A program made the translations under genes and the position numbers. Shown one piece after another: positions 1,860 to 18,913 of a DNA stretch of 32,808 nucleotides. Numbering within the stretch: position 1 is the first letter of the stretch; the number at the start of each line of letters is the position of its first letter. Origin of the DNA: Candidatus Omnitrophota bacterium (GTDB lineage: Bacteria; Omnitrophota; Gorgyraeia; 2-02-FULL-51-18); the NCBI GenBank assembly GCA_023248025.1, contig JAHFFI010000005.1, positions 1 through 32,808 on the forward strand. Direction: 5' to 3'. The notes beneath the pieces were generated by a model. It saw only the letters and a list, made by a program, of their open reading frames with translations. It ran no database searches and was not told the origin of the DNA.

Positions 1860-4800
1860 GTGTGGTTTATCCTGTATCAAAACCCTTTTAATATGAAAAA
1901 ACCGAAGACACCGTATTTAAAGATCATCGCCGGCACGCTGGTCCTGGCATTTTTAGCGCAGGATTTTTGCTACGCCGCGCCCGAAATCGCGTCATTTTTC
2001 TCCTCTGATCAGAAGAACATAGATCAGCGGTGGGTGAAAAATGTGCTGCCTGATATTCCACGATCGGTGGCCGAGGTCGTAGATGCCTGGAAGGCCCCCA
2101 AGGAAAGCTCAAGTGGCCCTGAGAGAATCGTTTATCTCATCCAGGACGCCCACACCAATTCATCCGCACAGAAAAATATCGCGCGCCTACTGGAGCTGAT
2201 GTCAGCGGAGACTATTTTCTTGGAGGCCGGTTTTGGGGATGAGTCTCTTGGGTTTCTTAGACCGTATGCGACTAAGCTCGAAAGACAAAGATTGGCCGAT
2301 TCATCCATCCAGGAAGGGTTGATACAAGGCAGCGAATATTATGATCTCACGTCGACGCGCCCGGTGGGGCTTTACGGCGTAGAAAATCTAGCCCTTTATG
2401 CGCAGGCCGTTTCTTTGTACCGGGATGTCAGCCTCGAAAGAGAGCGTCTAAAAAATTACCTTTCACAAGTCCAAAGTGTGATTCAATCGCTCAAACCCAG
2501 AGTGTATCATCCGTTCCTGCGCATGATGGACAGACATTACCAGGATTTTGAAAGCGGCAAGACGACACTGACGGATTATGTCGGGTTCTTATACGAGCAG
2601 GCCGGGCAATTGGCGATCTCGATGGATTCGTACAAGGAACTCAAGCAGCTGCAAAAAATTCGCAAGGCCGAATCGCGGGTGGACTTTGATCAAACCAATG
2701 GTGAACTTGCGCAAGCCTTGTCTTCACTGGGGGAAGAAGAACGAAAAGTTGTCACGCAGGCCGCTTCCGATACGGCCCTATTTAAATTGTCCGGACAGTC
2801 TCACGCAGCCGCTTGGGGCACCTTTACTCTGCTCAGTGAAAAATTAACGGAGCAGAACAAGATGGGGAATTATCCCAACCTAACCCACTATTTTGAGTAT
2901 TTGAATCTTTGCGTGAAACTGGACGTCGAAAAAATTCTCCGGGAAAAAACAGCGCTTGAAAATGCCCTGGTTGCTGTTTATTGCATCACCTCTGATGAGC
3001 ACAAGCTGTTTGTGTCCGGTCAGCACATAACACTGCTTAAAAAAATGCTGGATCTATCGCTGACGCCCGAAGAATTTGAAAATTACCGCTCCCATAAGGA
3101 GGATTTTAATATCGCAGCGCTTACGGGCTTTCTCAACAAAAAAATTATAGATTTTAGAGATGGGTATGACAATACGAGTATTTTAGAAAAGGGTTATGAG
3201 GAAGCGATAGAAAAAAGTGAGGCGTTTTATGGGCTCACCTTTGCCCGAGACGAGCAGATGATAGGTCATGCGCTTACGGAGATGCAAAATGAAAATTTAA
3301 CATCGGCGGCGCTTGTGGCGGGCGGATACCACAGCGTAAATCTGATGCGTCAATTAAAACAAAAGGGCATTTCGTATGTTTGTTTAAGGCCACAAATTTT
3401 GCAGGAAACAAACCAGAAAAAATACGAAGCTATTTTGTTGGGTCAGCATATGGATGCGCAGTTGAATACTTCACTGCCGGTCCCGCCCCGGGTCTCGGCA
3501 ATCAGCGCTATGCGTTTCGGGCTGACACCCACGACGCGTGACGACCACCTAGTTGCTTTAAAATGGCCCTCACCTGAGGAAGCCGAGGGGAAGATCAACG
3601 TCGTGATGAGTCAAAGAAAAAAAGACTTAGGATTGCAGTTTGCTGCTGCCGGCGGGCGGTTGGCAAAGAAGGAAGTGAGTTCATACGGCCCCGCGGATTT
3701 AGTGCAAATCACGCAACAATCGGCCAGACTAATGCCCAGCCCGAAAGAAGCAGCCCTTCTTGAAAGCATAATACCTGCGTTGCCTCAGGATCTGATATTT
3801 TGGGTGTATCACCGCGTCGATGCATGGAAGAAACTTTTATCGCCTTATAAAACCAAGCCGGTTCCTTACGGGTTTTATACGCGATTCTCAAACCCTCCGA
3901 GTATTTCTTTGTTGGACTATTCCTCCGTCCCTTACATCTTGGTGCATGAAATTTTTCATGTTTTTCAGTGCATGGGCATGCGACAAGAATGGTCCATACG
4001 GTTTAAGCATTTTCTTTATAATGTTCCCGATAAAATCATTTCAGACGCTTTTAGGTCCTGGGAAACGTATTTCAAAGAGAGCTCTATTTACAGTAAGAGT
4101 GACGTAGGTTTGGAGCTGGGTGCGCATCTTTTTTCTACGCTTCATTTTTTCGATGAAGCCCCCTTTGAACCGTCCGCGCAAAATTTCGCATCTTTAAATG
4201 ATCATGGTCAATGGGACCCGCAGCTTGGGGACTATTTGCGGGAGGCTCTCGAAACTAGACCCTCTATGGGTCAGCTTTATCAAGTCACGAGAAATTTTGC
4301 ATCTCGTATTTTAGAGGCTCCAGATCCGGTCCGAGATCGGGTATTGGCCGGCCTGAGACAATATTTTGAAGCACACAGCCCGCTGCCGGTTCCTCAAATT
4401 TTTGAAGCATCCACCGAATCCCTCCAAGGGTCGCGTCTGGCACAATCTCAAACAGCGGTTTCTCCCGAAGAAATCACCGATGCAAGAGCCGTGGAGTTTT
4501 ACCGCATGCACAGGGAGCTACTGGCGCTATTTTCAGAATACAATCAAGCCAAGAAATCACCCACACCTCAGATAAAAAAAATAAAAGCCTTTCTTTCTCA
4601 GGTCAGATCCTATGCGGAAAGGCTGGCTCCTTACGAAGCGGAAATAAGGGAATCAAAGGATGAGGATGCAGCGGTTTTGGCATCGTTTGAAGGCCGATCA
4701 CCGCCGGAGCTTAAACGGATCGAGTCCGAATTATCAAAAGAAATCAAGTCCTACCATTCACTTTTTACCGAAGCTCATGCGAACCGTAACGAAAGTGCGC

Positions 4801-7800
4801 TTGACGATCTAAATCATCAAGTGATTGTTCTGCTTAAGCGGCGTCTAAAAATTCAGCTGTTGAGATTGCAATTGGAATTGCAGCAGACGCCCCTGCGCCA
4901 GGGCCCCATTTATTTGATCGTATTGAGCATCGTCGGTATTTACCACCGTCTTTCCTATGAGCATTTATGGCGCACCAGGCGTAAAAGGGGCCAGCTTGCG
5001 CTTGAAGGTTTTCATGTGGGCGACGCGACGGGACATCTGGCCTTTACTTTGTACTATGAAAGACAGCCTGTTTTAAGGGTGGTGCGTTCTGCCGCCGGCA
5101 AAGTGGCCTTAAGTCAGATTATTTGGAAAAAAGTGACTACAACCGCCGGCACGGATGCTCTGATGCCTGTGATGACGCCGCTTAAATTTGAAAGCGTGGA
5201 TCCGGCATTTCGCAGCCGGCTGCATGCGATAGTCAGTCAGGAAGAGGATTACACGCAGCTGATTTACCACGATTTGGCTTTGGAGGATGTATCTACGATT
5301 CTTGAAAAATATAAAGCGAGTCCTGCCGGGATGACAAAGGATATCCGCGCGCATGTCACAGATTCTTTAGAATCAGTTTTGGCAGGCCCCCACGGAAAAA
5401 ACGGACTGCGCTTAAAAAGAGCCCGTGTGGCGAGTGATACCCAACCCCCCAGAATGCTACCCATGCCAAAAGAAAGCCTCGAATCAGCCGTAACACTCCT
5501 TGCCAATAATGATATCCGGTCTGCGTTGGACCTTATTAAGAGTACCAGAGACTACATTCACGGCCGCCTGGGAGTTATAGAAAAAATAAGAATAGCCACC
5601 GCTCGAAAGAAAGATTATTTGTACCTTATTATCCGCGATGGCCAGCTTAGAAAGCTGCTGAGTGAAATCAACACAACAGTTGCAAACCGGCCCATTGATT
5701 TAATTACTTTAAAAAATCAAATGCAAGCACTTGAGGTTATTTTGGAAGAAAGTTTTCAATTTGTGATCAGAGAACGCGAATACATTAACGTCAAACGGAT
5801 GATTCAGAGTGTGCTGGTCGTCTATAAAAATTTTAGTAAAGAACCTGCAGATCCCAGGGATTTGAGAGCTGTTGTTAGCCAATCGCTCGCGGACATGACG
5901 CGGCGAGCCGAGGCGCGGGTGTCGGGCTCAAGGCTTTCGGCGCGCGTTGCCACCTTAAAACAGGCCACGATGCTTAAAAGACTTTCCGAACTTATTCTTT
6001 GGACGGAGGTTGCGATGATTGACTGGGCTAATCGCCAGAAAACAAGTCTGCCGGGGGTGGGCGGGCACGAGGCCGCTGCGGCTTCTTCACTTCACATCAT
6101 AATGGCGCTTGAACTTTTTAGCCGCCGGGGCGAAGACCATGTGGCGCACAAACCTCATTCGTCACCGGCGTATCATGCGTTGCAGTATTTTCTGGGGCAG
6201 ATCCCCAAGGAGGTTCTTTTTAGACTGAGAGAAAATGACATTACTTTAAAACCAAGCCCCTACCAGGAACTTATTGACGACACCTTGGCGAATTCTCCTC
6301 CCGAACTGGCCGCCGCCTACCAAGCGGGCCTAAACGAATTGCTCGAACAATTACCTTCATCCGCAAAGACAGATTTGGACAAGCCCGGTTTACATTCGTA
6401 TCCCGGGATGGCGGACGCCAAACTCAATCCGCGCGTGACCATTCCCACGGGTTCCGTGGGTCTTGGTCCTGCGGCCGTTATCGTCCTGGCACTGGTCAAA
6501 AAATGGCTGCAGGATAATGGCTATACGGTGCCGGATTCGCATTTTTTTGCCGTATTGGGCGATGCGGAATTCGAAGAAGGTAATCTTCAGGAGATTTTAC
6601 CGCTTGTCGCCGAGCACAAGCTTTCGGGCGTGACGCATATCGTCGACTACAACCGCCAGTCGCTGGACGGAAACACTCAAGACCAAAAACTTTATGAAAT
6701 GAAAAACCGCTACGCATCTACAGGCTGGAAAGTAGTGGAGCTAAAATGGGGGGGCCGCATGAAAGCCGCCTTTGCGAAAAAAGTCGGAGGAAAAATTTTC
6801 CAAAAGGTCATGGAAGACATGTCGCCTTCGGCATACCAAGCGCTCCTCGCCAAGACCGGTGCCCAAATCCGCGCTGAACTGCTTGAGAAAAATTTAAAGC
6901 TTAAACCTTTTCTTAAAGTTTATACCGATGCGGCTCTTAAAGAGCTATGGCTGGATCTCGGCGGTCATGATCTGATGGAGCTCACACACGCGCTTGAAGA
7001 AGCCAGGAGCTCCTCTCAGGCGACGGTGATCATTGCCCACACCATTAAAGGCTGGGGGCTTGATCCCCTCATCGGAAAGGTTAGCAATCATTCGGCACTT
7101 TTAAATAAGTCCGAGATGAGTGACCTGAAAACAAAATTAGGCATTCAAGGGATTTCAGAGGAAGATCCCTTTCCCACTTTGGATATCGACAGCACAGCGG
7201 CACAGTGGCTGAGTCAGGTGCAAGCTCGCTTGAAAACGGAAGAAAATATTTCCCGACAAGAAATCGCAAAAAATGAGAATCAATGGCCTTTGCTTCCCAC
7301 ACGCATCATGCCCGGCATTGCGGATGGCATGAAGGAAATCTCGACGCAAGCTTATTTTTCCCAGATGGTGGCCAAACTTCGCCGAATTGCGCAGACACCG
7401 ATAGAAAATCTTACCGGAGATGAAGCGGCTTTAAAATCACTGGCAGAAAGAGTCGTAACCCTTTCACCGGATGTAGGCACTTCTACCGGATTAAGACCCA
7501 AAGGTGCCGTGGGTGGTTATGGGCCGAACAATCCTAAGGATAATCATTTTCGTTTTAGCATCGCCGAGATGAATTCTATGACGACCAGCGCCGGTTTTGG
7601 CAAATCCCATGATTTTTTTGGCGTACGGACAATCCCCGTGCAAACTATTTATGAAATGTTTTGGGACAGGCGCGCATTGGATCCATTTTTTTATGCTCAA
7701 TACTGGGGGTCTTCATTTATTCAATTTGTCACACCCTCCGGTGCGACGCTGTCGTCCGAAGGCGTCCAGCATCAGGGCATTACGGGCGTTGTGGTGGCGG

Positions 7801-10800
7801 AAGCTGTGCCAAACTCTATTCTGTGGGATCCCTGGAACGAAACGGATCTTGATTTTATTTTTACGGATGCGTTGAACCGCACCGCACTGGGCAACGACGA
7901 AGGTAGAAATGTCGTCACTATTCGAGGCACGACAAAAAATATCAGTCGTGAGGAATTGATGAAGCGACTACGCAGTATAAAGGCAAACGCGGGCCTCACG
8001 GATGAGCAGATTTTGACCGCTCATCGAGCAAACGTGCTGGCGGGCGGCTACCGTTTAGTGGATTACCGCGTCCATGAAGGCTATAAACCAAATGAAAATG
8101 TTGTGAATATTTTTGCGATGGGCGCCATGGTTCCTGAGGCGCTTTCTGCCTCGGATGCGCTCCTAAAAAATGTAGGTACTTACGCCAATGTGATTGTGGT
8201 GACCAGTCCCACGCTTTTAAATGGGCGTCTTGCCGAACAGAGCCGTTATGAACATCTCATGAGTCTAGTGCCTAGAGAAGAACGGCCGTTTGTGCCTGTG
8301 GTGACCGTTGCGGATGCGCCCAAGATGCTGCTAAAAGGCATAGGGGACAGGGGCATCGGCCTCCAATCAGAGAATTTGGGACTTTCCGAAAACGGGCTTT
8401 CTACCAGGGATCCCTCAAAAATATATCGCCATCACGGCATCTCGCGTGTGGATATCTTTAATGCGGCTTACGGAATGCTGGTGGAAAGAGACCGAGATGG
8501 AAGTCAAGTCGAAGATCTTTTGAATGCACTTTATGAGGAGGATGCGGGCGCGCGGTTTTCTGCTTCGCTACGTCCTTACGGCGCAGCTTCGCAGGAACGA
8601 GGGGCAGAGCAGAGCGTAGGAGGGCGGTTGTCTTCCGCGCCGCTTTTTCGTTTGGTTTCTCTTAAGCCGCCGCTACGCGGACGGGGGTACCCCATACAGG
8701 GCGAAGTGACTTTCTTGGGTGATCCGGAAAGATTGAAGTCACACTTTTTTACTGCGGAAGAATGGATGCGCGAGTCGTTGGCAAATCGTCGATGGGGTTT
8801 TTATGGATCCGGCAAAGTACGCTTCAGAAAGGATTTCGCGACTTATCCTCAAATGTTTTCGCCATTTTTTGGCGCCATGACAGCCGAGCAGGTTTTTAAA
8901 ATGTGGCAAGGAATGCGGCGGGCAAATACATGGACGCCCGGCGAACCGTTTGTGGTGATCGAGCTGGGCGCGGGCGAAGGCGATCTGGCGCATGATTTTA
9001 TTGAGCACGCGCGCAAAAAAGCTAAAGACCATCAGCCTGAGTGGCAGGATTTTTATGACGCGTTGCAGTACCGCGCCGTAGAATTTTCGCCCGTCTCTTT
9101 TGATACGATGCGGTCTAAAAATAAGACTTTTATGGATCAGGGTAAGCTCGTGGCAGTCCATTCGGATGCGCTGGCTTATCTGGATACCGTGGGCCGGTCT
9201 CCGGTAAAAGGCGTCGTACTATCCAACGAATTTTTAGATGCTCTGCCGGCGCACCAGGTACGCGTACAACCGGATGGCCAGGTCGAGGCGGCCTTGTTTA
9301 TTCCCCTGATTGATACCGATGCGTTGAGGATGTTGTTCCGTTCGGGCGTGTTGGATCGGCAAAAGACAAACACATTTGTAATAGAGGGCCAGAATATAAG
9401 CGCCCTCTCAAAAAAGGATTTCCTTAAGATCAGAGAAAAATTGGAGGATCCAAAAAATAAGACCTTAGCCCGTGATTTGAAGAAACATTTACGCATGGCG
9501 ACCTGTTATTTAAATGCGCGCTATTTTACGGATGTGCAGGAATACGCTCGATTAAATTCAGAAGAGATTTCATCGGTCGCGTCTCGTCATAAAGCCGGCA
9601 ATGTTGCCTTGATTGGGACCATCCACCGCCATTTTATTAAAAAAGCAGCAGACGCTCTGAGCAAGGGGTATATATTTAGTATCGATTATATGGAGCCTTC
9701 TTATAATATCTGGAACCCGCTCGTTGGACAGATGGCCGCATTCTCAGGAAATAAAATATTTTCTGATTGGGTGCTGAACGCCGGAAATTATGATGTCACC
9801 TATGATCCGGATGCCACTTATTTGGATCAATTAGGCCGGCGGATGGGTTTAAAGACTGCCTATTTTGGCAGTCAAAGCAACCTGGAAAAAGGGACATCCT
9901 TTGACTTGAAGACCGAAGACACTTCTTTAGCGATTTATAGAAATTTGTTTCACCGGCGGTTGGAAGATCACCGCAGCGATATTCAAACTTCACGTGATTG
10001 GCTGAGCAGATTCTTTGATGAGTTTCCTATTGATGCCGTGACGACGTCTACGTTCATGGGCCAATGGCCGGAAATAGCATTAAAAAACTTTATCGAACAA
10101 ATAGTGAAAGATCCACGCGTCCCGACGGAAGATCAACCTATGGTAACGACGACATTACAGCAAGTTGTAAAAAATTTAGTAACTAGAACCCAACAAGCAT
10201 TGGATATGTATTTAAGGTCTTTCTATGAGCTTCATTTCAAAATCCTGATCCAGCAAAAACCGGGGACGGATGATTCTTATCAGTTTCCCGCACCTTCGAG
10301 GGACTTGTATCCCCAGGGCGCGCGCCTTAGCCTTGAACACAACGAAACGCTTAGCTTAAGCGAGCTTCTAGAAAAGTTAAATGGATTGGTAAAACTGATT
10401 GCCGGTGAAAGTGACCCCAAAGTGCTACAGGAATATATAAAATTGACGGACGGTTATGTAAATAAATTTTTAGAAGCTACTTCACTGTGGTCAGATGATC
10501 CATTTTCAACTGTTGAAATGGTAGCAGAGTACGAAAAATGGGCGAAGATTCTTATGAGGTTAGTCTACCAAGATGCGCAACTGGCCAGTAAGCAACACAA
10601 CACGGAAGTCAAAAACGCCGCGAAAATAGATCTCGTATCTAACCAATCGAATTTTTCTGAGGCGATTCTAAAACTTACCGGCTCGGCGCGCATTGTGGCC
10701 ATGAGTTCCCACAAAGCGACTTCCATTGAGGTTACCGCAGCTTCTCTAAAAGCGATTGAAAGTATCGCGGGTGAACTATTTGCGTTAATTCACAAAGAGA

Positions 10801-13800
10801 GGGGAGATTATTTATTTTTTACCCGATACAAGCAGGCACTTTTTTCTGCCGATCGTATTCTTGAGTGGCTTAGCGTATTATGGATGATAGGCGCTGCCGG
10901 TGATGCCATCTTGCCGGTGCTTGATCGTCTGATGGATCTTTACGAAGAAAAAGAAATTTTATACATTCTCTTGTCAATCCTGAATCATCCGGGGTCGGAC
11001 ATAAATCAAGACTTTAAATCAGACGTGGTCGATGAGCTTTCGTGGATGGCAGCAAATCTTGGCAAATTTAAACAAAAACTCGAAAAGGTCCAGTCACAAG
11101 ATGCCAATTACGCCGACGCTCAAAAACTGCTCGTGCATCTAAACCGTTTTTCAGAAGCCCGACATAAGTTAGAAATGGACTCCATGGAACCGGGTCACTT
11201 AGCCGGAAGGACTATCTTATTGTTCCGCGAGCTAGAAAAATTAAAGACCCCCGGCGCGAGGTTGGCCGTGCGCGTGGTTAAAAGGGTTGATTTTAAGAAC
11301 AGGGCGCCTTTGAATTTTTACAGAGCTATTCTGGCGCAGAAAAAAATAAAAGTTTCTTCGAATGCCCGATTCAAATGGTATGGGTGGCAATTCGAGACGC
11401 CGGATGGACGGGATACCCTTCAAAAATATGCGATACAGCGGCTTGACCGGCGATCTTACCGGATTTATGGTCAAAAAGATTACAATCCGTTTACCTTTGT
11501 GGATCTTCTATTCATTTATTCGAAATCCGGACGAAACCGAATCAAACTCAAATACACGACAGAAGGCCGGTACTGGATCAAAAACCGAAGACCTTATTTC
11601 ACGACCCACGCGGAAAGAAGGATCAGGAGTCCACTGATTCGGAGTATCGAGTTTCTGTCAGACGGTACGATGAAGGTTTATCTGGATCCGGCGGCCATGA
11701 AAGTATTCGATAGACCCAAAGTGTCTGAAGCTTTTCGGAAAGACGAAGAATATTTCATGACGCGTCAGGGAGACGCTGTGCACTTTGGCGATGGAATTGT
11801 ATTCATACCCGTCTCCACCCATGAAAAATCATCGGGTGCGCGGTTGGCGGGTGAAGCGGTCTATAGCGACAAGGCGCCGGCGGCAGTCGGGGCTTATCCG
11901 CATGCACGACGCTATGAAAACATGCTTTTTGTTTCCGGTATGGGGCCTCGGCAGCGTGGGGCAACTGAGATCCCTGGGGGGACCTTGAAGGATGGCAAAG
12001 CGGTCGCTCATGATATTGAAGCACAAATGCGTTCAACTTTTGAAAATCTGCGGTACATATTGGAAGCGGGCGGATTTTCATGGAAAGAAATTTTAAAAAT
12101 GAATATTTTCCTCACCCATCGATCGGATACACCGGCATTCGAGCGTCTTTGGAGGGAATATTTCCCGACCCAAGAGCATCAGCCCTCACGCAGCATTACT
12201 TTCGTTACCGCGCTGCCGACCCCGATCGCTTTTGAAGTCAACGCAGTGGCGGTCAAAGACTCATCCGTGCAGACACCTCTAGCCACTTTTGCTTTCATGA
12301 GCCAACCATCCGAGGATGCTGCCGATCAAATCCGTAAACTATTCAATAACGTAAAGGCCACGCTCGCACTGGATCGAATTCTCTCAGTCAGCGTTTCGCT
12401 GGCCGATATGAAATATTTCAAAATTTATAATGAAATATGGACAGAAGTATTCTCAGACACTCAACATCAGCCCGCGCGCACAACCGTCGCGGTCGGTACA
12501 CTGCCTGAGGGTGTTGCCATTCTAATTAAAGTAATCACCGTCCAGGAACAGGAAACGACTGAATTTTCAGGCGCACGGTTGGGGAAATATATTCCTAGAG
12601 GCCAACTATTTAACGCAGTGGCAATTGCCGTGTTAGCGGCATTTGCTTATTGGCAGAATTTTCTCCCGCTCGCATCGGACTCGTTTGGCATCTGGATCGC
12701 AAAAACAATCGGTACGTTTGTCAGTTTTGGGATTATTTCGGACACTCTGGCCAAACGCAGCACTGGAGAGCCCATGTCGTGGCGTGCTGCATTTCGCGCT
12801 GCTGCTTATGGAGCAATAAATGGATTTGTGACCATGGGATTTTTCTGGGGCATTGATCAAATTCCTAATCCTATAGGAAACCCTGTTACGCGGGCACTGC
12901 TACAAACATTTATCTTGAGCCAAATCCGTACACGGGTCAAAGCCCAAATGTTTCACACCCAAAATAAAGCGGCCAAAAAAGAAGGGATTGCCAAGAGGCG
13001 ATACGAATCTTTGTGGCTGAGCCGACTTCATGCCATCGGCAGTAATGCCGTGGTCCAATGGCTTCCATTCTGGGTTCGAGGTGCTGCCGAAGCGATCAAA
13101 ACCCAGTGGTTTGACCACTATTTTTCGTACGCGAATCATGATCCTAGACCGTCGCTACTTCGCCGCCCGGAACTTGTAAAACGCATTTCAAATTATTTCC
13201 CAGTCTGGATGGGAAAAGAACAGTGGGCGCTCATGGTTTATGGGCTGATAGCCCCTTTCCTTAATTTATACGATTTTGTGATGAAAAAGAATGTTTCATC
13301 ACTCGATCCGGATCGGAAAAGAGCACTTATGATTCGCACCTGGACTCCGGACGAATCCACAGGCCAAACTTATACTCATCCTTCCGAAATCCAAAAGTTC
13401 GTCATGGCTGAATTAAATCAAAGATTCAAACCGGATCAGACATTTAATATTCTGGATGCCGGCGCAGGAGCGGATCTATACACGCTTAGAAATATTAAGA
13501 GCCGTTTTCCAAACTCAAACGCCCATGCGCTGGATATCTTGCCGATAGACGAAATTGATTTGGATAAAGAGGACCCCTTTGTTTATCACCAGGATTTTCT
13601 GGAGAACACAAGTCTTCTTTCGGGTTCTTTCCAAGCGGTTGTTTCGACTTTGGTATTGGATTTTATTGAGCACGACAAAGCGGTTCAAGAAATCCATCGG
13701 CTACTTGCCGAGGATGGTGTAGCCATTGTGGTGATCCATCAGATTCCCGAAAACGTGTTGGCAGAGCATAGCGAGAAGATAAGCGCTTTCCATCAAATGC

Positions 13801-15758
13801 TTTCTCTTGCTAAAACTTCGGACGAGAGGGATTTGATAGAAGGCAACATCCTCTTGATCAAGACGTTTATTGAAAATCAACAACGTTTTGATTCTATCTA
13901 TAAAAGACGCCAATTTTTCAATTCGCGGGGTTTTAAAGTATTGAAAATGTTGACCGTTGATGAGGGGGACCGCGGCAACCTCGTCGGATTTGTTTTGAAT
14001 AAAGTACCCTCCGGTGCCCGGCTGGCGAAATCGGATCAAAAAATCCTCAATGCTATCGCATCTTTACAATTAAAAGGCAAAAAATCCATCACTCATGAAC
14101 TTATTGCCCAAGAGGCAGGACTGTCGTCCGGCACTATTTTAAATAGAAAATCCCGGAACTCCACTATCCAAAAAGCCGTGGATGAGGTGACCAAGGCTGA
14201 CTTTCAAATCTTATCGGCAATCGCATCCTTACAATCAAAAGGCCAACAACACATCACCCAGAAACTCATTGCCCAAGAAGCAGGGCTAGCGTCTCACACT
14301 ATCACCAAAAGAAAATCCCAGAATCCCGCTATCCGGAAAGCCGTGGATGAGGCGACATTTTTTACAGAGGCAGAATATAAAATCTTATCAGCTATCGCAT
14401 CCTTACAATCAAAAGGCCAAAAACACATCACCCAGAAACTCATTGCCCAAGAGGCAGGGTTATCACCTACAACTACCTCAAACAGAAGATCTCAAAATTC
14501 TGTTATCCGTAAAGCCATGGATGAGGTGACCAATACTGACCTCCAAATCTTATCAGCTATCGCATCCTTACAATTAAAAGGCCAACAACACATCACCCAG
14601 AAACTCATTGCCCAAGAAGCAGGTTTTACGCTTATCACTATTCGCAAAAGAAAATCCCAGAACTCCACTATCCAAAAAGCCATGGATAAGGCGACACATA
14701 ATGACCAAAAAAGCTCCGGCGCCCGACTCGCCACCCCGCTCACTATTGACCCCGTACTTAAAGAAGGTCTGAAATTGGTTTTGGTGGCTCAATATTTAAA
14801 GAAAAAAAACCTGGCACAAGATGAAAAATTTGCAGTTGAGGTGACTCAACAGGATAAAACATTTAACCCTGTTTTTGAAATCAAGATTTCGGGGGCGGAT
14901 GAAAATTTGACGCTTGCGCTGTTATTCAACGGCCAGGCCCAAGTGTCCTTGACGGGAGCGGAGATCAGCGAGTGGCAAACGAAATTGCGTCAACGGAGCG
15001 CTGACGCCCGGCAGAAACAAGCGATTATTTCCATCGCTAAGCTGGCACACAGGCGCATGGACGAGGCTTTGCCGGCAAGTCTTGTTGCATCAGAGGGCGT
15101 GATCGGGTTCAATATGCTTGATTTTAATCTGCAAAAAGATTCTGATTTTAAACAGGCCATAAAACTACTGCACGATTTACTGGCGGCATATGGGCCGGGG
15201 GAGTATTATTTATCCGGCATGGACTCGCAAGCGTTATCGCCCGCTAGAAAAAGATTTGTCGACTCGCAAGTATCTAAATACAAAAAAAAGTATCCCTTTA
15301 TTAAAATATTTCTGACGTATCCAACAGGAAAAATTCTCACCAAAGTGAAACTGATGAAAACTGGTGACAGTGAAATCCTTCCCCTAAGCTCTCAAAATGA
15401 ACTTCAAATTCTGGCGGCGGGGTTTTCTGACGGCCAGGTACCGAATTTAGACGGCGCGCTGCGGCTGGCTAAAAAAATAACGGTGGTTTATACGGCGCGG
15501 GCGGTGTCCGGCGCGCTGCCGCAGGATGCAGAAGCACTTGAAAAAATATATCAAGATTTAAACGAGGTGTCGCGTTTTATGCAAGAATTCTCAGAAAGCC
15601 AATCGCGGCCGTCCGGCCGCGCGCTCCACGCGTATTTTACGGGCGCCATGAACCTTACGGAATCTTTAAATCTGGTGCTTAAGCCGCTGACTGCCTATCT
15701 CGACAACATGGCCAGCGCCCTGGGTCTTATTCGTCAAAGCATTGAGATCAGCGCGTAA
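1860..15758 (+). CDS. Giant secreted modular multi-enzyme protein (about 4,620-4,632 aa)
   Basis: Single uninterrupted ORF. Listed start is GTG 1860; in-frame ATG 1893 (MKKPKTPYLKIIAGTLVLAFLAQDFCYA|APE) gives a clean signal peptide. Several recognisable enzyme modules, separated mostly by GARLA-like motifs. Confidence 0.9.
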   Translation: MWFILYQNPFNMKKPKTPYLKIIAGTLVLAFLAQDFCYAAPEIASFFSSDQKNIDQRWVKNVLPDIPRSVAEVVDAWKAPKESSSGPERIVYLIQDAHTNSSAQKNIARLLELMSAETIFLEAGFGDESLGFLRPYATKLERQRLADSSIQEGLIQGSEYYDLTSTRPVGLYGVENLALYAQAVSLYRDVSLERERLKNYLSQVQSVIQSLKPRVYHPFLRMMDRHYQDFESGKTTLTDYVGFLYEQAGQLAISMDSYKELKQLQKIRKAESRVDFDQTNGELAQALSSLGEEERKVVTQAASDTALFKLSGQSHAAAWGTFTLLSEKLTEQNKMGNYPNLTHYFEYLNLCVKLDVEKILREKTALENALVAVYCITSDEHKLFVSGQHITLLKKMLDLSLTPEEFENYRSHKEDFNIAALTGFLNKKIIDFRDGYDNTSILEKGYEEAIEKSEAFYGLTFARDEQMIGHALTEMQNENLTSAALVAGGYHSVNLMRQLKQKGISYVCLRPQILQETNQKKYEAILLGQHMDAQLNTSLPVPPRVSAISAMRFGLTPTTRDDHLVALKWPSPEEAEGKINVVMSQRKKDLGLQFAAAGGRLAKKEVSSYGPADLVQITQQSARLMPSPKEAALLESIIPALPQDLIFWVYHRVDAWKKLLSPYKTKPVPYGFYTRFSNPPSISLLDYSSVPYILVHEIFHVFQCMGMRQEWSIRFKHFLYNVPDKIISDAFRSWETYFKESSIYSKSDVGLELGAHLFSTLHFFDEAPFEPSAQNFASLNDHGQWDPQLGDYLREALETRPSMGQLYQVTRNFASRILEAPDPVRDRVLAGLRQYFEAHSPLPVPQIFEASTESLQGSRLAQSQTAVSPEEITDARAVEFYRMHRELLALFSEYNQAKKSPTPQIKKIKAFLSQVRSYAERLAPYEAEIRESKDEDAAVLASFEGRSPPELKRIESELSKEIKSYHSLFTEAHANRNESALDDLNHQVIVLLKRRLKIQLLRLQLELQQTPLRQGPIYLIVLSIVGIYHRLSYEHLWRTRRKRGQLALEGFHVGDATGHLAFTLYYERQPVLRVVRSAAGKVALSQIIWKKVTTTAGTDALMPVMTPLKFESVDPAFRSRLHAIVSQEEDYTQLIYHDLALEDVSTILEKYKASPAGMTKDIRAHVTDSLESVLAGPHGKNGLRLKRARVASDTQPPRMLPMPKESLESAVTLLANNDIRSALDLIKSTRDYIHGRLGVIEKIRIATARKKDYLYLIIRDGQLRKLLSEINTTVANRPIDLITLKNQMQALEVILEESFQFVIREREYINVKRMIQSVLVVYKNFSKEPADPRDLRAVVSQSLADMTRRAEARVSGSRLSARVATLKQATMLKRLSELILWTEVAMIDWANRQKTSLPGVGGHEAAAASSLHIIMALELFSRRGEDHVAHKPHSSPAYHALQYFLGQIPKEVLFRLRENDITLKPSPYQELIDDTLANSPPELAAAYQAGLNELLEQLPSSAKTDLDKPGLHSYPGMADAKLNPRVTIPTGSVGLGPAAVIVLALVKKWLQDNGYTVPDSHFFAVLGDAEFEEGNLQEILPLVAEHKLSGVTHIVDYNRQSLDGNTQDQKLYEMKNRYASTGWKVVELKWGGRMKAAFAKKVGGKIFQKVMEDMSPSAYQALLAKTGAQIRAELLEKNLKLKPFLKVYTDAALKELWLDLGGHDLMELTHALEEARSSSQATVIIAHTIKGWGLDPLIGKVSNHSALLNKSEMSDLKTKLGIQGISEEDPFPTLDIDSTAAQWLSQVQARLKTEENISRQEIAKNENQWPLLPTRIMPGIADGMKEISTQAYFSQMVAKLRRIAQTPIENLTGDEAALKSLAERVVTLSPDVGTSTGLRPKGAVGGYGPNNPKDNHFRFSIAEMNSMTTSAGFGKSHDFFGVRTIPVQTIYEMFWDRRALDPFFYAQYWGSSFIQFVTPSGATLSSEGVQHQGITGVVVAEAVPNSILWDPWNETDLDFIFTDALNRTALGNDEGRNVVTIRGTTKNISREELMKRLRSIKANAGLTDEQILTAHRANVLAGGYRLVDYRVHEGYKPNENVVNIFAMGAMVPEALSASDALLKNVGTYANVIVVTSPTLLNGRLAEQSRYEHLMSLVPREERPFVPVVTVADAPKMLLKGIGDRGIGLQSENLGLSENGLSTRDPSKIYRHHGISRVDIFNAAYGMLVERDRDGSQVEDLLNALYEEDAGARFSASLRPYGAASQERGAEQSVGGRLSSAPLFRLVSLKPPLRGRGYPIQGEVTFLGDPERLKSHFFTAEEWMRESLANRRWGFYGSGKVRFRKDFATYPQMFSPFFGAMTAEQVFKMWQGMRRANTWTPGEPFVVIELGAGEGDLAHDFIEHARKKAKDHQPEWQDFYDALQYRAVEFSPVSFDTMRSKNKTFMDQGKLVAVHSDALAYLDTVGRSPVKGVVLSNEFLDALPAHQVRVQPDGQVEAALFIPLIDTDALRMLFRSGVLDRQKTNTFVIEGQNISALSKKDFLKIREKLEDPKNKTLARDLKKHLRMATCYLNARYFTDVQEYARLNSEEISSVASRHKAGNVALIGTIHRHFIKKAADALSKGYIFSIDYMEPSYNIWNPLVGQMAAFSGNKIFSDWVLNAGNYDVTYDPDATYLDQLGRRMGLKTAYFGSQSNLEKGTSFDLKTEDTSLAIYRNLFHRRLEDHRSDIQTSRDWLSRFFDEFPIDAVTTSTFMGQWPEIALKNFIEQIVKDPRVPTEDQPMVTTTLQQVVKNLVTRTQQALDMYLRSFYELHFKILIQQKPGTDDSYQFPAPSRDLYPQGARLSLEHNETLSLSELLEKLNGLVKLIAGESDPKVLQEYIKLTDGYVNKFLEATSLWSDDPFSTVEMVAEYEKWAKILMRLVYQDAQLASKQHNTEVKNAAKIDLVSNQSNFSEAILKLTGSARIVAMSSHKATSIEVTAASLKAIESIAGELFALIHKERGDYLFFTRYKQALFSADRILEWLSVLWMIGAAGDAILPVLDRLMDLYEEKEILYILLSILNHPGSDINQDFKSDVVDELSWMAANLGKFKQKLEKVQSQDANYADAQKLLVHLNRFSEARHKLEMDSMEPGHLAGRTILLFRELEKLKTPGARLAVRVVKRVDFKNRAPLNFYRAILAQKKIKVSSNARFKWYGWQFETPDGRDTLQKYAIQRLDRRSYRIYGQKDYNPFTFVDLLFIYSKSGRNRIKLKYTTEGRYWIKNRRPYFTTHAERRIRSPLIRSIEFLSDGTMKVYLDPAAMKVFDRPKVSEAFRKDEEYFMTRQGDAVHFGDGIVFIPVSTHEKSSGARLAGEAVYSDKAPAAVGAYPHARRYENMLFVSGMGPRQRGATEIPGGTLKDGKAVAHDIEAQMRSTFENLRYILEAGGFSWKEILKMNIFLTHRSDTPAFERLWREYFPTQEHQPSRSITFVTALPTPIAFEVNAVAVKDSSVQTPLATFAFMSQPSEDAADQIRKLFNNVKATLALDRILSVSVSLADMKYFKIYNEIWTEVFSDTQHQPARTTVAVGTLPEGVAILIKVITVQEQETTEFSGARLGKYIPRGQLFNAVAIAVLAAFAYWQNFLPLASDSFGIWIAKTIGTFVSFGIISDTLAKRSTGEPMSWRAAFRAAAYGAINGFVTMGFFWGIDQIPNPIGNPVTRALLQTFILSQIRTRVKAQMFHTQNKAAKKEGIAKRRYESLWLSRLHAIGSNAVVQWLPFWVRGAAEAIKTQWFDHYFSYANHDPRPSLLRRPELVKRISNYFPVWMGKEQWALMVYGLIAPFLNLYDFVMKKNVSSLDPDRKRALMIRTWTPDESTGQTYTHPSEIQKFVMAELNQRFKPDQTFNILDAGAGADLYTLRNIKSRFPNSNAHALDILPIDEIDLDKEDPFVYHQDFLENTSLLSGSFQAVVSTLVLDFIEHDKAVQEIHRLLAEDGVAIVVIHQIPENVLAEHSEKISAFHQMLSLAKTSDERDLIEGNILLIKTFIENQQRFDSIYKRRQFFNSRGFKVLKMLTVDEGDRGNLVGFVLNKVPSGARLAKSDQKILNAIASLQLKGKKSITHELIAQEAGLSSGTILNRKSRNSTIQKAVDEVTKADFQILSAIASLQSKGQQHITQKLIAQEAGLASHTITKRKSQNPAIRKAVDEATFFTEAEYKILSAIASLQSKGQKHITQKLIAQEAGLSPTTTSNRRSQNSVIRKAMDEVTNTDLQILSAIASLQLKGQQHITQKLIAQEAGFTLITIRKRKSQNSTIQKAMDKATHNDQKSSGARLATPLTIDPVLKEGLKLVLVAQYLKKKNLAQDEKFAVEVTQQDKTFNPVFEIKISGADENLTLALLFNGQAQVSLTGAEISEWQTKLRQRSADARQKQAIISIAKLAHRRMDEALPASLVASEGVIGFNMLDFNLQKDSDFKQAIKLLHDLLAAYGPGEYYLSGMDSQALSPARKRFVDSQVSKYKKKYPFIKIFLTYPTGKILTKVKLMKTGDSEILPLSSQNELQILAAGFSDGQVPNLDGALRLAKKITVVYTARAVSGALPQDAEALEKIYQDLNEVSRFMQEFSESQSRPSGRALHAYFTGAMNLTESLNLVLKPLTAYLDNMASALGLIRQSIEISA
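2130..3480 (+). other. Domain: N-terminal ChaN/TraB (Tiki-like) fold candidate within the giant protein
   Basis: RIVYLIQDAHTNSSAQKNIARLLE...TIFLEAGFGDE...GLYGVENLALYAQ...ALVAGGYHSVNLMRQLKQKGISYVCLRPQI resembles the spaced motifs of the ChaN/TraB/EreA-like superfamily. Assigned by eye only. Confidence 0.45.
3690..4130 (+). other. Domain: putative zinc-metallopeptidase-like segment with HExxH
   Basis: PYILVHEIFHVFQCMGM; HEIFH encoded at 3945-3959, followed by a possible downstream Glu/His in VGLELGAHLF. Confidence 0.45.
5943..8540 (+). other. Domain: homodimeric pyruvate dehydrogenase E1 / transketolase-like (TPP enzyme)
   Basis: GGHEAAAASSLHIIMALELFSRRGEDHVAHKPHSSPAYHALQYFLG; GLHSYPGMADAKLNPRVTIPTGSVGLGP; FFAVLGDAEFEEGN...IVDYNRQSLDGN (TPP motif region); SFIQFVTPSGATLSSEGVQHQGITG. 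Length about 870 aa, comparable to full AceE. Confidence 0.85.
8700..9880 (+). other. Domain: MidA/NDUFAF7-like SAM-dependent methyltransferase (COG1565-type)
   Basis: PFFGAMTAEQVFKMW...PFVVIELGAGEGDLAHDFIEHARKK...GVVLSNEFLDALPAHQVRV...GYIFSIDYMEPS. Confidence 0.75.
11859..12548 (+). other. Domain: tandem RidA (YjgF/YER057c/UK114) domains
   Basis: Copy 1: YSDKAPAAVGAYPHARRYENMLFVSGMG...PSRSITFVTALPTPIAFEVNAVAV. Copy 2: TPLATFAFMSQPSEDAADQIRKLFNNVKATL...PARTTVAVGTLPEGVAILIKVITVQ. Both retain the Arg preceding the TxVxV-like strand. Confidence 0.8.
12590..12900 (+). other. Domain: hydrophobic membrane-spanning segment (possible Mpv17/PMP22-like)
   Basis: LFNAVAIAVLAAFAYWQNFLPLASDSFGIWIAKTIGTFVSFGIISDTLAKRSTGEPMSWRAAFRAAAYGAINGFVTMGFFWGIDQ: several hydrophobic stretches; the family assignment is tentative. 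Confidence 0.45.
13420..13860 (+). other. Domain: class I SAM-dependent methyltransferase
   Basis: TFNILDAGAGADLYTLRNIKSRFPNSNAHALDILP...GSFQAVVSTLVLDFIEHDKAVQEIHRLLAEDGVAIVVIHQ. Confidence 0.75.
14028..14710 (+). repeat. Four tandem HTH-like repeats (55/58/55-codon spacing) inside the giant protein
   Basis: Repeated ILSAIASLQ(S/L)KGQ(Q/K)HITQKLIAQEAGL...R(K/R)S(Q/R)NS(T/A)I(Q/R)KA(V/M)DE. The ATC (Ile) codon anchors lie at 14043, 14208, 14382 and 14547. High nucleotide identity, especially units 2-4. Confidence 0.93.
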
Positions 15759-16967: not shown

Positions 16968-16997
16968 TTGACAGGCTGAACGTTCGTTCAGTATAGT
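16968..16997 (+). promoter_or_regulatory. lexA promoter with LexA (SOS) box
   Basis: TTGACA (16968-16973), 18-nt spacer, TATAGT (16992-16997); GAAC-GTTC-GTTC (16978-16989) matches the Gram-positive-type GAACN4GTTC LexA box between -35 and -10. Confidence 0.85.
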
Positions 16998-17016
16998 GCT
17001 TTCGGGGGAGAGCACA

Positions 17017-17598
17017 ATGCCGACCGAAATAGATTTTGCTTCATCCATTCAAAAAATCCGCGGGTTTTATAAAGAAAGTCATCGCTCTCCCAGTTTTTCC
17101 GAGATCGCATCCCTTTTCGGATACAAGTCCAAGAATGCCGCTTTCGAATTAGTCGATAAACTCGTCCAAAAAGGTTTTCTCAAAAAAGATTCCAAAGGAA
17201 AGATACTCTTTGATCGTTTGGCCGGTGTACGGCTTCTGGGCACGGTGCAGGCCGGCTGGCCCAGTCCCGCCGAAGAAGAGCTCGTCGATACGATGAGCCT
17301 CGATGAATTTTTGGTTGAGCGGCCTCAGCAAACTTTTTTAATCAAAGTGACCGGTGATTCCATGATAGATGCCGGTATTCAAGAGGGTGACCTTGTGCTT
17401 GTCGAGCGCGGTCGGAACCCCAAGAATAAAGATATCGTGATCGCCCAGGTCGACAACGAATGGACGATGAAATATTATGAAAAATCGGGCGGCCAGGTGC
17501 GTCTCATTGCCGCCAATAAAAAATATCCCCCCATCAAACCCCGTGAAGAGCTGAAAATAGGAGGCATCATTGTTGCAGTCATCCGTAAATATAGGTAG
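17017..17598 (+). CDS. lexA: LexA family SOS repressor
   Basis: N-terminal wHTH SPSFSEIASLFGYKSKNAAFELVDKL; AG cleavage site in GTVQAGWPSP; GDSM Ser and TMKYY Lys catalytic positions. ATG 17017 preceded by GGGGGAG. Confidence 0.93.
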   Translation: MPTEIDFASSIQKIRGFYKESHRSPSFSEIASLFGYKSKNAAFELVDKLVQKGFLKKDSKGKILFDRLAGVRLLGTVQAGWPSPAEEELVDTMSLDEFLVERPQQTFLIKVTGDSMIDAGIQEGDLVLVERGRNPKNKDIVIAQVDNEWTMKYYEKSGGQVRLIAANKKYPPIKPREELKIGGIIVAVIRKYR

Positions 17599-17617
17599 TC
17601 CCGAGAACTATCCTCTA

Positions 17618-18913
17618 ATGCTCCGTTCTTTCCCGCGTGCCATTGCACATATCGACTGTGACGCATTTTTTTCAAGTATTGAGCAATCGCTGAATCCTTC
17701 TATCAAAGGAAAGCCCGTGATCACAGGGAAAGAAAGAGGCATCGCGGCGGCGATGAGCTATGAGGCCAGGGATCGCGGTGTGACACGCGGTATGAGACTT
17801 TATGAAGTAAAAAAGCTTTGTCCCGATGCCGTGATTCTGCCTAATGACTACGAAACGTATTCGCTTTTTTCAAAGCGCTTCTACGGGATTTTAAGGCGCT
17901 TTACACCCGATGTAGAAGAATATTCCATCGATGAGGCGTTTGTGGATCTTTCAGGTCTGAGGCGTCTGTATCACGCGCCCTATGAAGTCATCGCGATGCA
18001 GATAAAAGAAACGCTCGAGCGTGAACTCGGGCTGACGGTCTCGGTGGGGCTGAGCATCACGAAGTCGCTGGCTAAGATCGCCTCACGCGAGAATAAACCG
18101 TCAGGATTTACCTGCGTGCGCGGGTACGATCTTAATTCATTTTTAAAATCAATGCCGGTTTCGCGGGTTTGCGGGCTGGGGCCCAACAGCAGCGCTCTTT
18201 TGGCGAAGCACGGAATAAATACCGTCTGGGAATATGTGAACCGTCCTGAAGTATTCGTGCGTAAACTGCTGGGGAAAGTGGGCGCAGAACTTTGGCAGGA
18301 ATTAAGAGGCGACGCAGTCTATCGCGTCATGAAAGGCGAAAATAAACATCAGGCGTCGCTCAGTAAGACCAAAACTTTCACGCCGCCTTCCCATGACAAG
18401 GATTTCGTGCGGGCGCAGATGCTGAGAAACACCGAATCCGCTTTTATAAAACTCCGCCGTCATCATTTGCGCGCAGGTTCCGTCAGTGTTTATCTCACGG
18501 ATCATGAATTTAAAAGCCGGGGTCTTTATGCGGAACTCACGCGTTCCACCGGTTCTACGCTCGACGCAGCGGTTATCGTCGCGGGGCTGTTTGAAAAATT
18601 GTATGATCCGCGGGTGAAATACCGCCGTACCGGTATAGTTTTAAGCTCGCTTGAGATCGATAAAGAAATGCAGTACGATCTTTTTCAGGATGTTTGCCGC
18701 GTAAAAAAACTGGAAACAATATCCAGGGTTATAGACGAAGTGAACCAGACTTATGGAAAGCATTCGCTTCATCTGGGCTCGACGGATCTTTTGAACCGTT
18801 TCGCGCATCATTTGGGCGACCGCGGCGACGTGGCTTTGCGGAAACAGAATCTGCTTCCGGGAGAGACCTTCCGCCGCCGGGTGCGTCTGCCGGTTTGGAA
18901 CGTGAAAGTCTAA
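17618..18913 (+). CDS. dinB: Y-family DNA polymerase (Pol IV, DinB)
   Basis: IAHIDCDAFFSSIEQSLNPSIKGKPVITG...AAMSYEARDRGVTRGM...YSIDEAFVDLSG...SVGLSITKSLAKIASRENKPSG. Directly downstream of lexA. Confidence 0.93.
   Translation: MLRSFPRAIAHIDCDAFFSSIEQSLNPSIKGKPVITGKERGIAAAMSYEARDRGVTRGMRLYEVKKLCPDAVILPNDYETYSLFSKRFYGILRRFTPDVEEYSIDEAFVDLSGLRRLYHAPYEVIAMQIKETLERELGLTVSVGLSITKSLAKIASRENKPSGFTCVRGYDLNSFLKSMPVSRVCGLGPNSSALLAKHGINTVWEYVNRPEVFVRKLLGKVGAELWQELRGDAVYRVMKGENKHQASLSKTKTFTPPSHDKDFVRAQMLRNTESAFIKLRRHHLRAGSVSVYLTDHEFKSRGLYAELTRSTGSTLDAAVIVAGLFEKLYDPRVKYRRTGIVLSSLEIDKEMQYDLFQDVCRVKKLETISRVIDEVNQTYGKHSLHLGSTDLLNRFAHHLGDRGDVALRKQNLLPGETFRRRVRLPVWNVKV

Follow-up and report, generated by a model that had tools for sequence, protein, structure and literature searches.

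Giant ORFs in one Omnitrophota family carry a short peptide motif of the GARLA type at the seams between their modules, and the modules between motifs are reused in different polyproteins. We rate as somewhat better than even the chance that the motif is the processing site of an exported modular polyprotein, at which an endopeptidase would cut the chain into free modules. The giant ORFs have a common layout, which consists of a signal peptide, a Tiki-like domain at the N-terminus (N-domain), variable unrelated modules and a common type of C-terminal tail. The variable modules comprise enzymes, TPR, HEAT, HTH-like and other domains.

The giant ORF of the window and the enrichment of the motif

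The window, that is, the whole stretch of 32,808 nucleotides that was analysed, is contig C21 in an assembly of 1.46 Mb and 152 contigs. Its giant ORF has an alternative start at GTG 1860 and is 4632 aa long when counted from this GTG; its parts are listed in Table 1. The end of its signal peptide is of the (S/A)-x-A type, which by eye is common among the other giant ORFs. Downstream of the giant ORF, at 16996-18913, a UmuD-like S24 peptidase lies beside a Y-family polymerase, an SOS-type pair.

Table 1. Features of the giant ORF in the window.
Feature	Position	Strand	Remark
Giant modular ORF (polyprotein)	1893..15758	+	ATG 1893 is the preferred start, as it gives a signal peptide
Predicted Sec signal peptide MKKPKTPYLKIIAGTLVLAFLAQDFCYA	1893..1976	+	Alignment judged by eye
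Conserved N-domain, Tiki/ChaN-like	1977..3449	+	D85, H87, E111 and H480 invariant in 36 sequences
Junction motif GGRLA	3651..3665	+	In frame
Module 2, putative zinc-peptidase-like (HEIFH)	3666..4427	+	From sequence; without Pfam match
Junction motif GSRLA	4428..4442	+	In frame
Junction motif SGSRLS	5922..5939	+	In frame
Pyruvate-dehydrogenase-E1/transketolase-type module	5940..8546	+	Homologous module after motif in L170
Junction motif GARFS	8547..8561	+	In frame
Junction motif GGRLS	8619..8633	+	In frame
MidA/NDUFAF7-type methyltransferase module (Methyltransf_28)	8634..10316	+	Homologue between motifs in L153
Junction motif GARLS	10317..10331	+	In frame
Junction motif GARLA	11253..11267	+	In frame
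Junction motif SGARLA	11832..11849	+	RidA match begins two residues later
Tandem RidA module	11850..12566	+	
Junction motif SGARLG	12567..12584	+	In frame
Module with hydrophobic, membrane-like segments (by eye) and SAM methyltransferase (Methyltransf_11)	12585..14009	+	
Junction motif SGARLA	14010..14027	+	In frame
Helix-turn-helix-like repeat module	14028..14714	+	Homologue directly after AARLA in L158
Junction motif SGARLA	14715..14732	+	In frame
C-terminal domain with conserved-type tail ending ...SA and stop	14733..15758	+	

A sequence-only reading of the window had listed twelve sites of the motif. Eleven of them are exact, and all are in frame in one ORF. The remaining site, GALRLA at 15453-15470, was rejected as a copy because it does not fit G-x-R-L-x and falls within the C-terminal domain. 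The window's other ORFs of at least 100 aa are free of the pentamer, as that reading had said.

The frequency of the motif was then determined in larger sets. In 0.91 Mb of the window's genome, the ORFs that reach 1000 aa or more (33,787 aa in total) contained 51 copies of G[AGS]RL[ASG], and the shorter ones (255,266 aa) contained 7; each of seven permuted pentamers tried on the same 0.91 Mb gave 0-1 matches. In 1.08 Mb of the genome, GARL[ASG] was found 51 times in 12 giant-like ORFs versus twice in 1073 others; the giant class of this count is partly motif-defined, so the 0.91 Mb count is the cleaner test. Nine ORFs of at least 1000 aa in the 0.91 Mb set are without GARL[ASG] and start with ordinary-looking proteins; judging from their first residues, several look like housekeeping enzymes. 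Among 74 giant or N-domain ORFs (207,600 aa), a set chosen in part for carrying the motif and including 46 ORFs chosen by the N-domain alone, GARLA was observed 189 times versus 0.85 expected. Ala, Leu, Arg and Gly are frequent residues, which would favour a composition artefact or chance, but the approximately 220-fold excess and the 0-1 matches of the permuted pentamers rule this explanation out for practical purposes. The motif is thus far more frequent than composition predicts, and the objection that the sequence-only reading had raised against itself on this point failed. The extent of the enrichment is larger than a single window could reveal.

Consensus, variants and lineages

The consensus is [GA]AR[LM][AS], and the window also has G or S at position 2. 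The accepted variants in the 74 ORFs were AARLA (95), GARMA (41), GARLS (37) and GARLT (12), with GARLG (10), PARLA (10), GGRLA (10) and GSRLA (7) as lesser ones. The AARLA count is less clean than the others because AARLA can also arise in Ala-rich helices. In these ORFs the Arg was essentially fixed, position 5 was small, and position 4 was L, M or F (GARFA 6), whereas GARVA and GARIA occurred 2 times each. By its residues, a fixed Arg followed by L/M/F and then a small residue, the motif looks like a substrate motif.

The motif was restricted to one Omnitrophota family, with lineage-specific variants. The ratio of GGNGCNCGNCTNKCN to its reversed-pattern control was 34:2 in G000, 37:4 in G031 and 36:15 in G172, and in genomes of the phylum outside the family the counts were, by eye, close to those of the controls. 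The window's genome has GARL without AARL or GARM, and JAJVIE is nearly the same. CAMDWQ and G251 have GARL and AARL, and JAGVCY and JAGOUK have more GARM, AARL or AARM. Distant ORFs with the N-domain, for instance those of QZJZ and JAJDCD, were without the motif, and an alternative junction word sought in distant Omnitrophota carrying the N-domain was not found either. A giant ORF of a related, nearer genome, L217 (JACPAX), has 5 copies of a repeated word, PSMNP, which is possibly another seam word.

Position of the motif at module seams

Pfam positions, recurrent modules and enzymes with solved structures bore out the placement at module boundaries that had been proposed from the window. None of 98 motifs lay inside a Pfam domain, versus 11.4 expected (P 5e-6). 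The 22 modules common to different polyproteins contained 9 internal motifs versus 24.9 expected, and 43% of their ends were within 45 aa of a motif versus 15% (0 of 2000 rotations). The E1, MidA and HTH modules of the window recur in L170, L153 and L158 and are motif-adjacent there too. Another shared module (G190C1 3778-4047 and G000C67 484-760) has motifs at both ends in both polyproteins.

Two enzymes define the seam more closely. The isocitrate lyase 2 module of contig C52, which retains the CGH signature, aligned to chain residues 36-775 of 786 of the solved enzyme; it begins about 13 aa after one GARLA and stops about 19 aa before the next. The RidA match begins 2 aa after a motif and, for many solved chains, its first aligned position is residue 2-4 of the chain; by this alignment the RidA after the motif appears to start at its natural N-terminus. 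An AlphaFold model of the RidA stretch from single-sequence input had a pLDDT of 37 and was uninformative. The motif lies outside the domains detectable by Pfam or solved structures, which, as far as these domains go, answers the concern that it might belong to folded cores.

One ORF of 10,129 aa has 27 motifs, and their spacing is more even than chance (median 300 aa, CV 0.40 versus 0.94). The flanks of the motif are only mildly linker-like. A short motif, repeated and evenly spaced in one long ORF and set in a mildly hydrophilic context, would also suit docking or assembly, in which a partner (a chaperone, or a secretion or surface scaffold) binds the uncut chain, and the ends that the ORFs have in common, both N- and C-terminal, suggest that export takes a dedicated route. 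However, the motif has no tie to any partner, and a docking motif need not stand where an enzyme naturally begins, as it does at RidA. We regard docking as improbable.

Modules as complete proteins

Normally separate proteins are found in the family's giant ORFs, including E1, MidA, RidA, isocitrate lyase 2, a malate synthase-like protein and others. Several modules are complete, and those of isocitrate lyase 2 and RidA gave near full-length alignments. The isocitrate lyase module of C52 is the sole near full-length match to this enzyme in its genome, so it may be the functional copy; C62 has a short match, which probably represents a related enzyme. A standalone TIM is present in 12 of 13 family genomes, including the window's genome and G172, and therefore the TIM-like stretch in the giant ORF of G172 is not needed as a TIM. 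Some modules may be divergent extra copies.

The giant ORF of contig C52 (L004/L005) combines isocitrate lyase 2, malate synthase-like and DeoC/FbaB-like aldolase modules, the aldolase apparently being followed by a degenerate copy. A giant ORF on contig C22 of G251 (L055, L056) has a partial 1,3-beta-glucan synthase domain, a domain best known from eukaryotes, which ends about 15 aa before a motif. Zinc-peptidase-like HExxH words were about three times as frequent in the giant ORFs as expected (15 versus 4.6); they were seen in the window (3666-4427), G000C82, G172C57, G031C27, L183 and others.

Shared ends of the giant ORFs

The giant ORFs with a visible start have a signal-peptide-like start and the N-domain. 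Across 36 sequences, whose identity falls as low as 19%, residues Q84, D85, H87, N89, E111, G477, G478 and H480 of the N-domain do not vary. The PF04187 (ChaN/Tiki) profile matched 6 of the 36 N-domains (best E 4e-5), and the window copy was not among the matches. The N-domain model had a pLDDT of 82.7, and Foldseek searches with it gave no reliable Tiki-fold match (best E 0.11; an Ere structure at E 1.3). Catalysis by one Tiki-superfamily endopeptidase needs two His and two Glu (PMC6254334). The D-x-H, E and H of the N-domain resemble this plan with Asp in place of one Glu, and the activity is putative.

The contigs bearing the N-domain are titled Candidatus Omnitrophota or Omnitrophica, save one Bdellovibrionaceae and one Candidatus Auribacter. 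L200, whose contig is the one titled Bdellovibrionaceae, may reflect a binning or naming error, or transfer. The N-domain is not strictly tied to the motif, because it is present also in Omnitrophota ORFs without the motif.

At the other end, 40 of the 48 giant ORFs with a visible end (hand count) terminate in [AS]A, versus 17 of 810 other ORFs. The tail type is an amphipathic-looking stretch followed by [AS]A and the stop (L007, L004, window 15600-15758 and others). In some tails the motif is echoed by an ARM[AS]-like stretch that lies a few residues from the end. The tail is a possible C-terminal recognition tag.

History of the motif at the DNA level

The sequence-only reading had placed the conservation of the motif at the protein level only. 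The codons do vary (42 distinct 15-mers among 49), but they are biased, and identical 15-mers are in excess. In the pooled genomes, GGC, GCG, CGG and CTG were over-used in the motif, and CGG encoded its Arg 105 times versus 41.5 expected (p 8e-28), whereas the codons of the same residues up to 12 positions either side were unbiased (p 0.19-0.64). Viewed singly, most of seven genomes follow the pooled trend, and JAJVIE favours CGT for Arg. Identical 15-mers numbered 44 versus 18 expected by codon shuffling (0 of 2000 shuffles), the recurrence coming chiefly from JAJVIE (25 versus 7.3) and CAMDWQ (9 versus 3.5). The flanks of the identical words are unrelated, which excludes recent duplication of larger stretches as the sole cause. 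Translational accuracy is disfavoured as the cause of the bias because CGG is a minority codon in the seven ORFs presumed to be highly expressed, where it makes up 7% of the codons for Arg. Synonymous-codon bias is unexpected for a pure protein-level cut site, and a DNA-level history of the seam is a new element. From these sequences, either the word has been copied or its synonymous sites are under selection, and neither alternative is favoured.

The codon data bear on a recombination seam without cleavage, in which the DNA word is copied or serves as microhomology for module exchange, the chains function uncut as giant multidomain proteins and the peptide is a tolerated, soluble linker. A bias confined to the motif, exact 15-mers beyond what site-wise codon frequencies give, the failure of translational accuracy and the shuffling of modules between polyproteins at the motif all argue for it. 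Against it, recognition of the peptide is indicated by an Arg that is fixed and a position 4 limited to L/M/F, and many synonymous variants persist. Moreover, 48 of 69 matches to a loose DNA pattern of the motif are in frame within giant ORFs, so the word seems to be kept for the protein. We consider recombination without cleavage possible but rather unlikely; a recombination seam may be additional to processing, not instead of it.

The codon bias also suggests a nucleic-acid signal, such as internal initiation or ribosome pausing between modules. The motif Leu codons CTG/TTG are over-used (153 versus 91.5 expected), and Met (ATG) replaces Leu in the 41 GARMA. Internal start codons are disfavoured, however, because at position 4 Val (GTG) is almost absent and Phe is accepted, and because 30% of the Leu codons depart from NTG. 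Synonymous change has left Gly, Ala and Arg in place, and most genomes are without a Shine-Dalgarno-like word. A translational signal is very improbable.

Discussion

We return to the processing site as the reading that we favour, and we infer the following course. The signal peptide would export the giant chain, which would fold module by module, and an endopeptidase would recognise the GARLA-type seam and release the modules. Our guess for the bond is after L/M (between GARL and A), because Ala or Ser N-termini would result; the data fit a cut after Arg equally well. The candidate enzymes are the N-domain, a zinc-peptidase-like (HExxH) module or a host protease in the remaining genome. No protease tracking the motif was found. 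Clostripain C11 was rejected, as none of the 13 family genomes searched contains it, and a signature search for other proteases, which covered 74% of the window's genome, brought up no clear candidate.

Three roles had been suggested for the motif from the window. The processing site and the recombination seam remain, and both may hold; the internal and repeated placement of the motif makes a C-terminal sorting tag unlikely. A fuller scheme, in which the Tiki-type front domain would release the modules at GARLA seams that double as DNA joints for module swaps between chains, is speculative, and we think it has a small chance of being right.

If the seam is cut, the giant genes of Omnitrophota would be compact multi-protein genes rather than single giant proteins, and their size, domain content and proposed predatory role would be read differently. 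The motif would also predict a site-specific protease, and it offers a simple rule by which giant ORFs without annotation can be split into modules for testing. Were the seam a recombination joint, module shuffling would have a bacterial analogue here.

C-terminal sorting signals (LPXTG, PEP-CTERM and GlyGly-CTERM) are short conserved peptides on exported proteins. The motif is likewise a short conserved peptide of predicted exported proteins, but it is internal and repeated, and the [AS]A tail is without a hydrophobic span and basic cluster. MARTX toxins are exported, multi-module, autoprocessing chains. The MARTX-type family includes a Tiki-superfamily endopeptidase as one module (PMC6254334), of which the Tiki-like N-domain may be a counterpart, and the giant ORFs share the predicted export of a multi-module chain. 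In contrast to these toxins, the giant ORFs have several metabolic-enzyme modules and the motif at many seams, and the C80 cysteine protease domain had no Pfam match in the giant ORFs scanned. Compared with the Tiki superfamily (ChaN, Ere, TraB/PrgY; PF04187), the N-domain has the acid-x-His, Glu and GG-x-His in family order, together with weak profile matches, but it carries a large helical insertion, and its fold match is not significant.

Processed polyproteins are known from RNA viruses and some protist plastids. The giant ORFs resemble them in having several complete proteins per ORF with a short conserved site between. They differ in being cellular bacterial genes, several per genome, with unrelated modules and a signal peptide, and their cleavage is inferred. 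To our knowledge, there are no bacterial families of exported polyproteins whose unrelated modules are split by one common peptide. In a literature search that excluded bioRxiv preprints and most subscription journals, we found no paper naming the motif or a polyprotein in Omnitrophota. Giant ORFs themselves are known in the phylum as very long ORFs, some of them thought to be surface or predatory proteins, and the passages of that report cited here describe few annotated domains and mention no junction motif (PMC10066038, Seymour et al. 2023). The ORFs analysed here are likewise very long and from the same phylum; relative to the 20 kb limit of that report (PMC10066038), the ORF of the window (13.9 kb) lies below and the ORF G190C1 of a relative (30 kb) above. 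That Omnitrophota possess giant ORFs is therefore known, and their module grammar is new.
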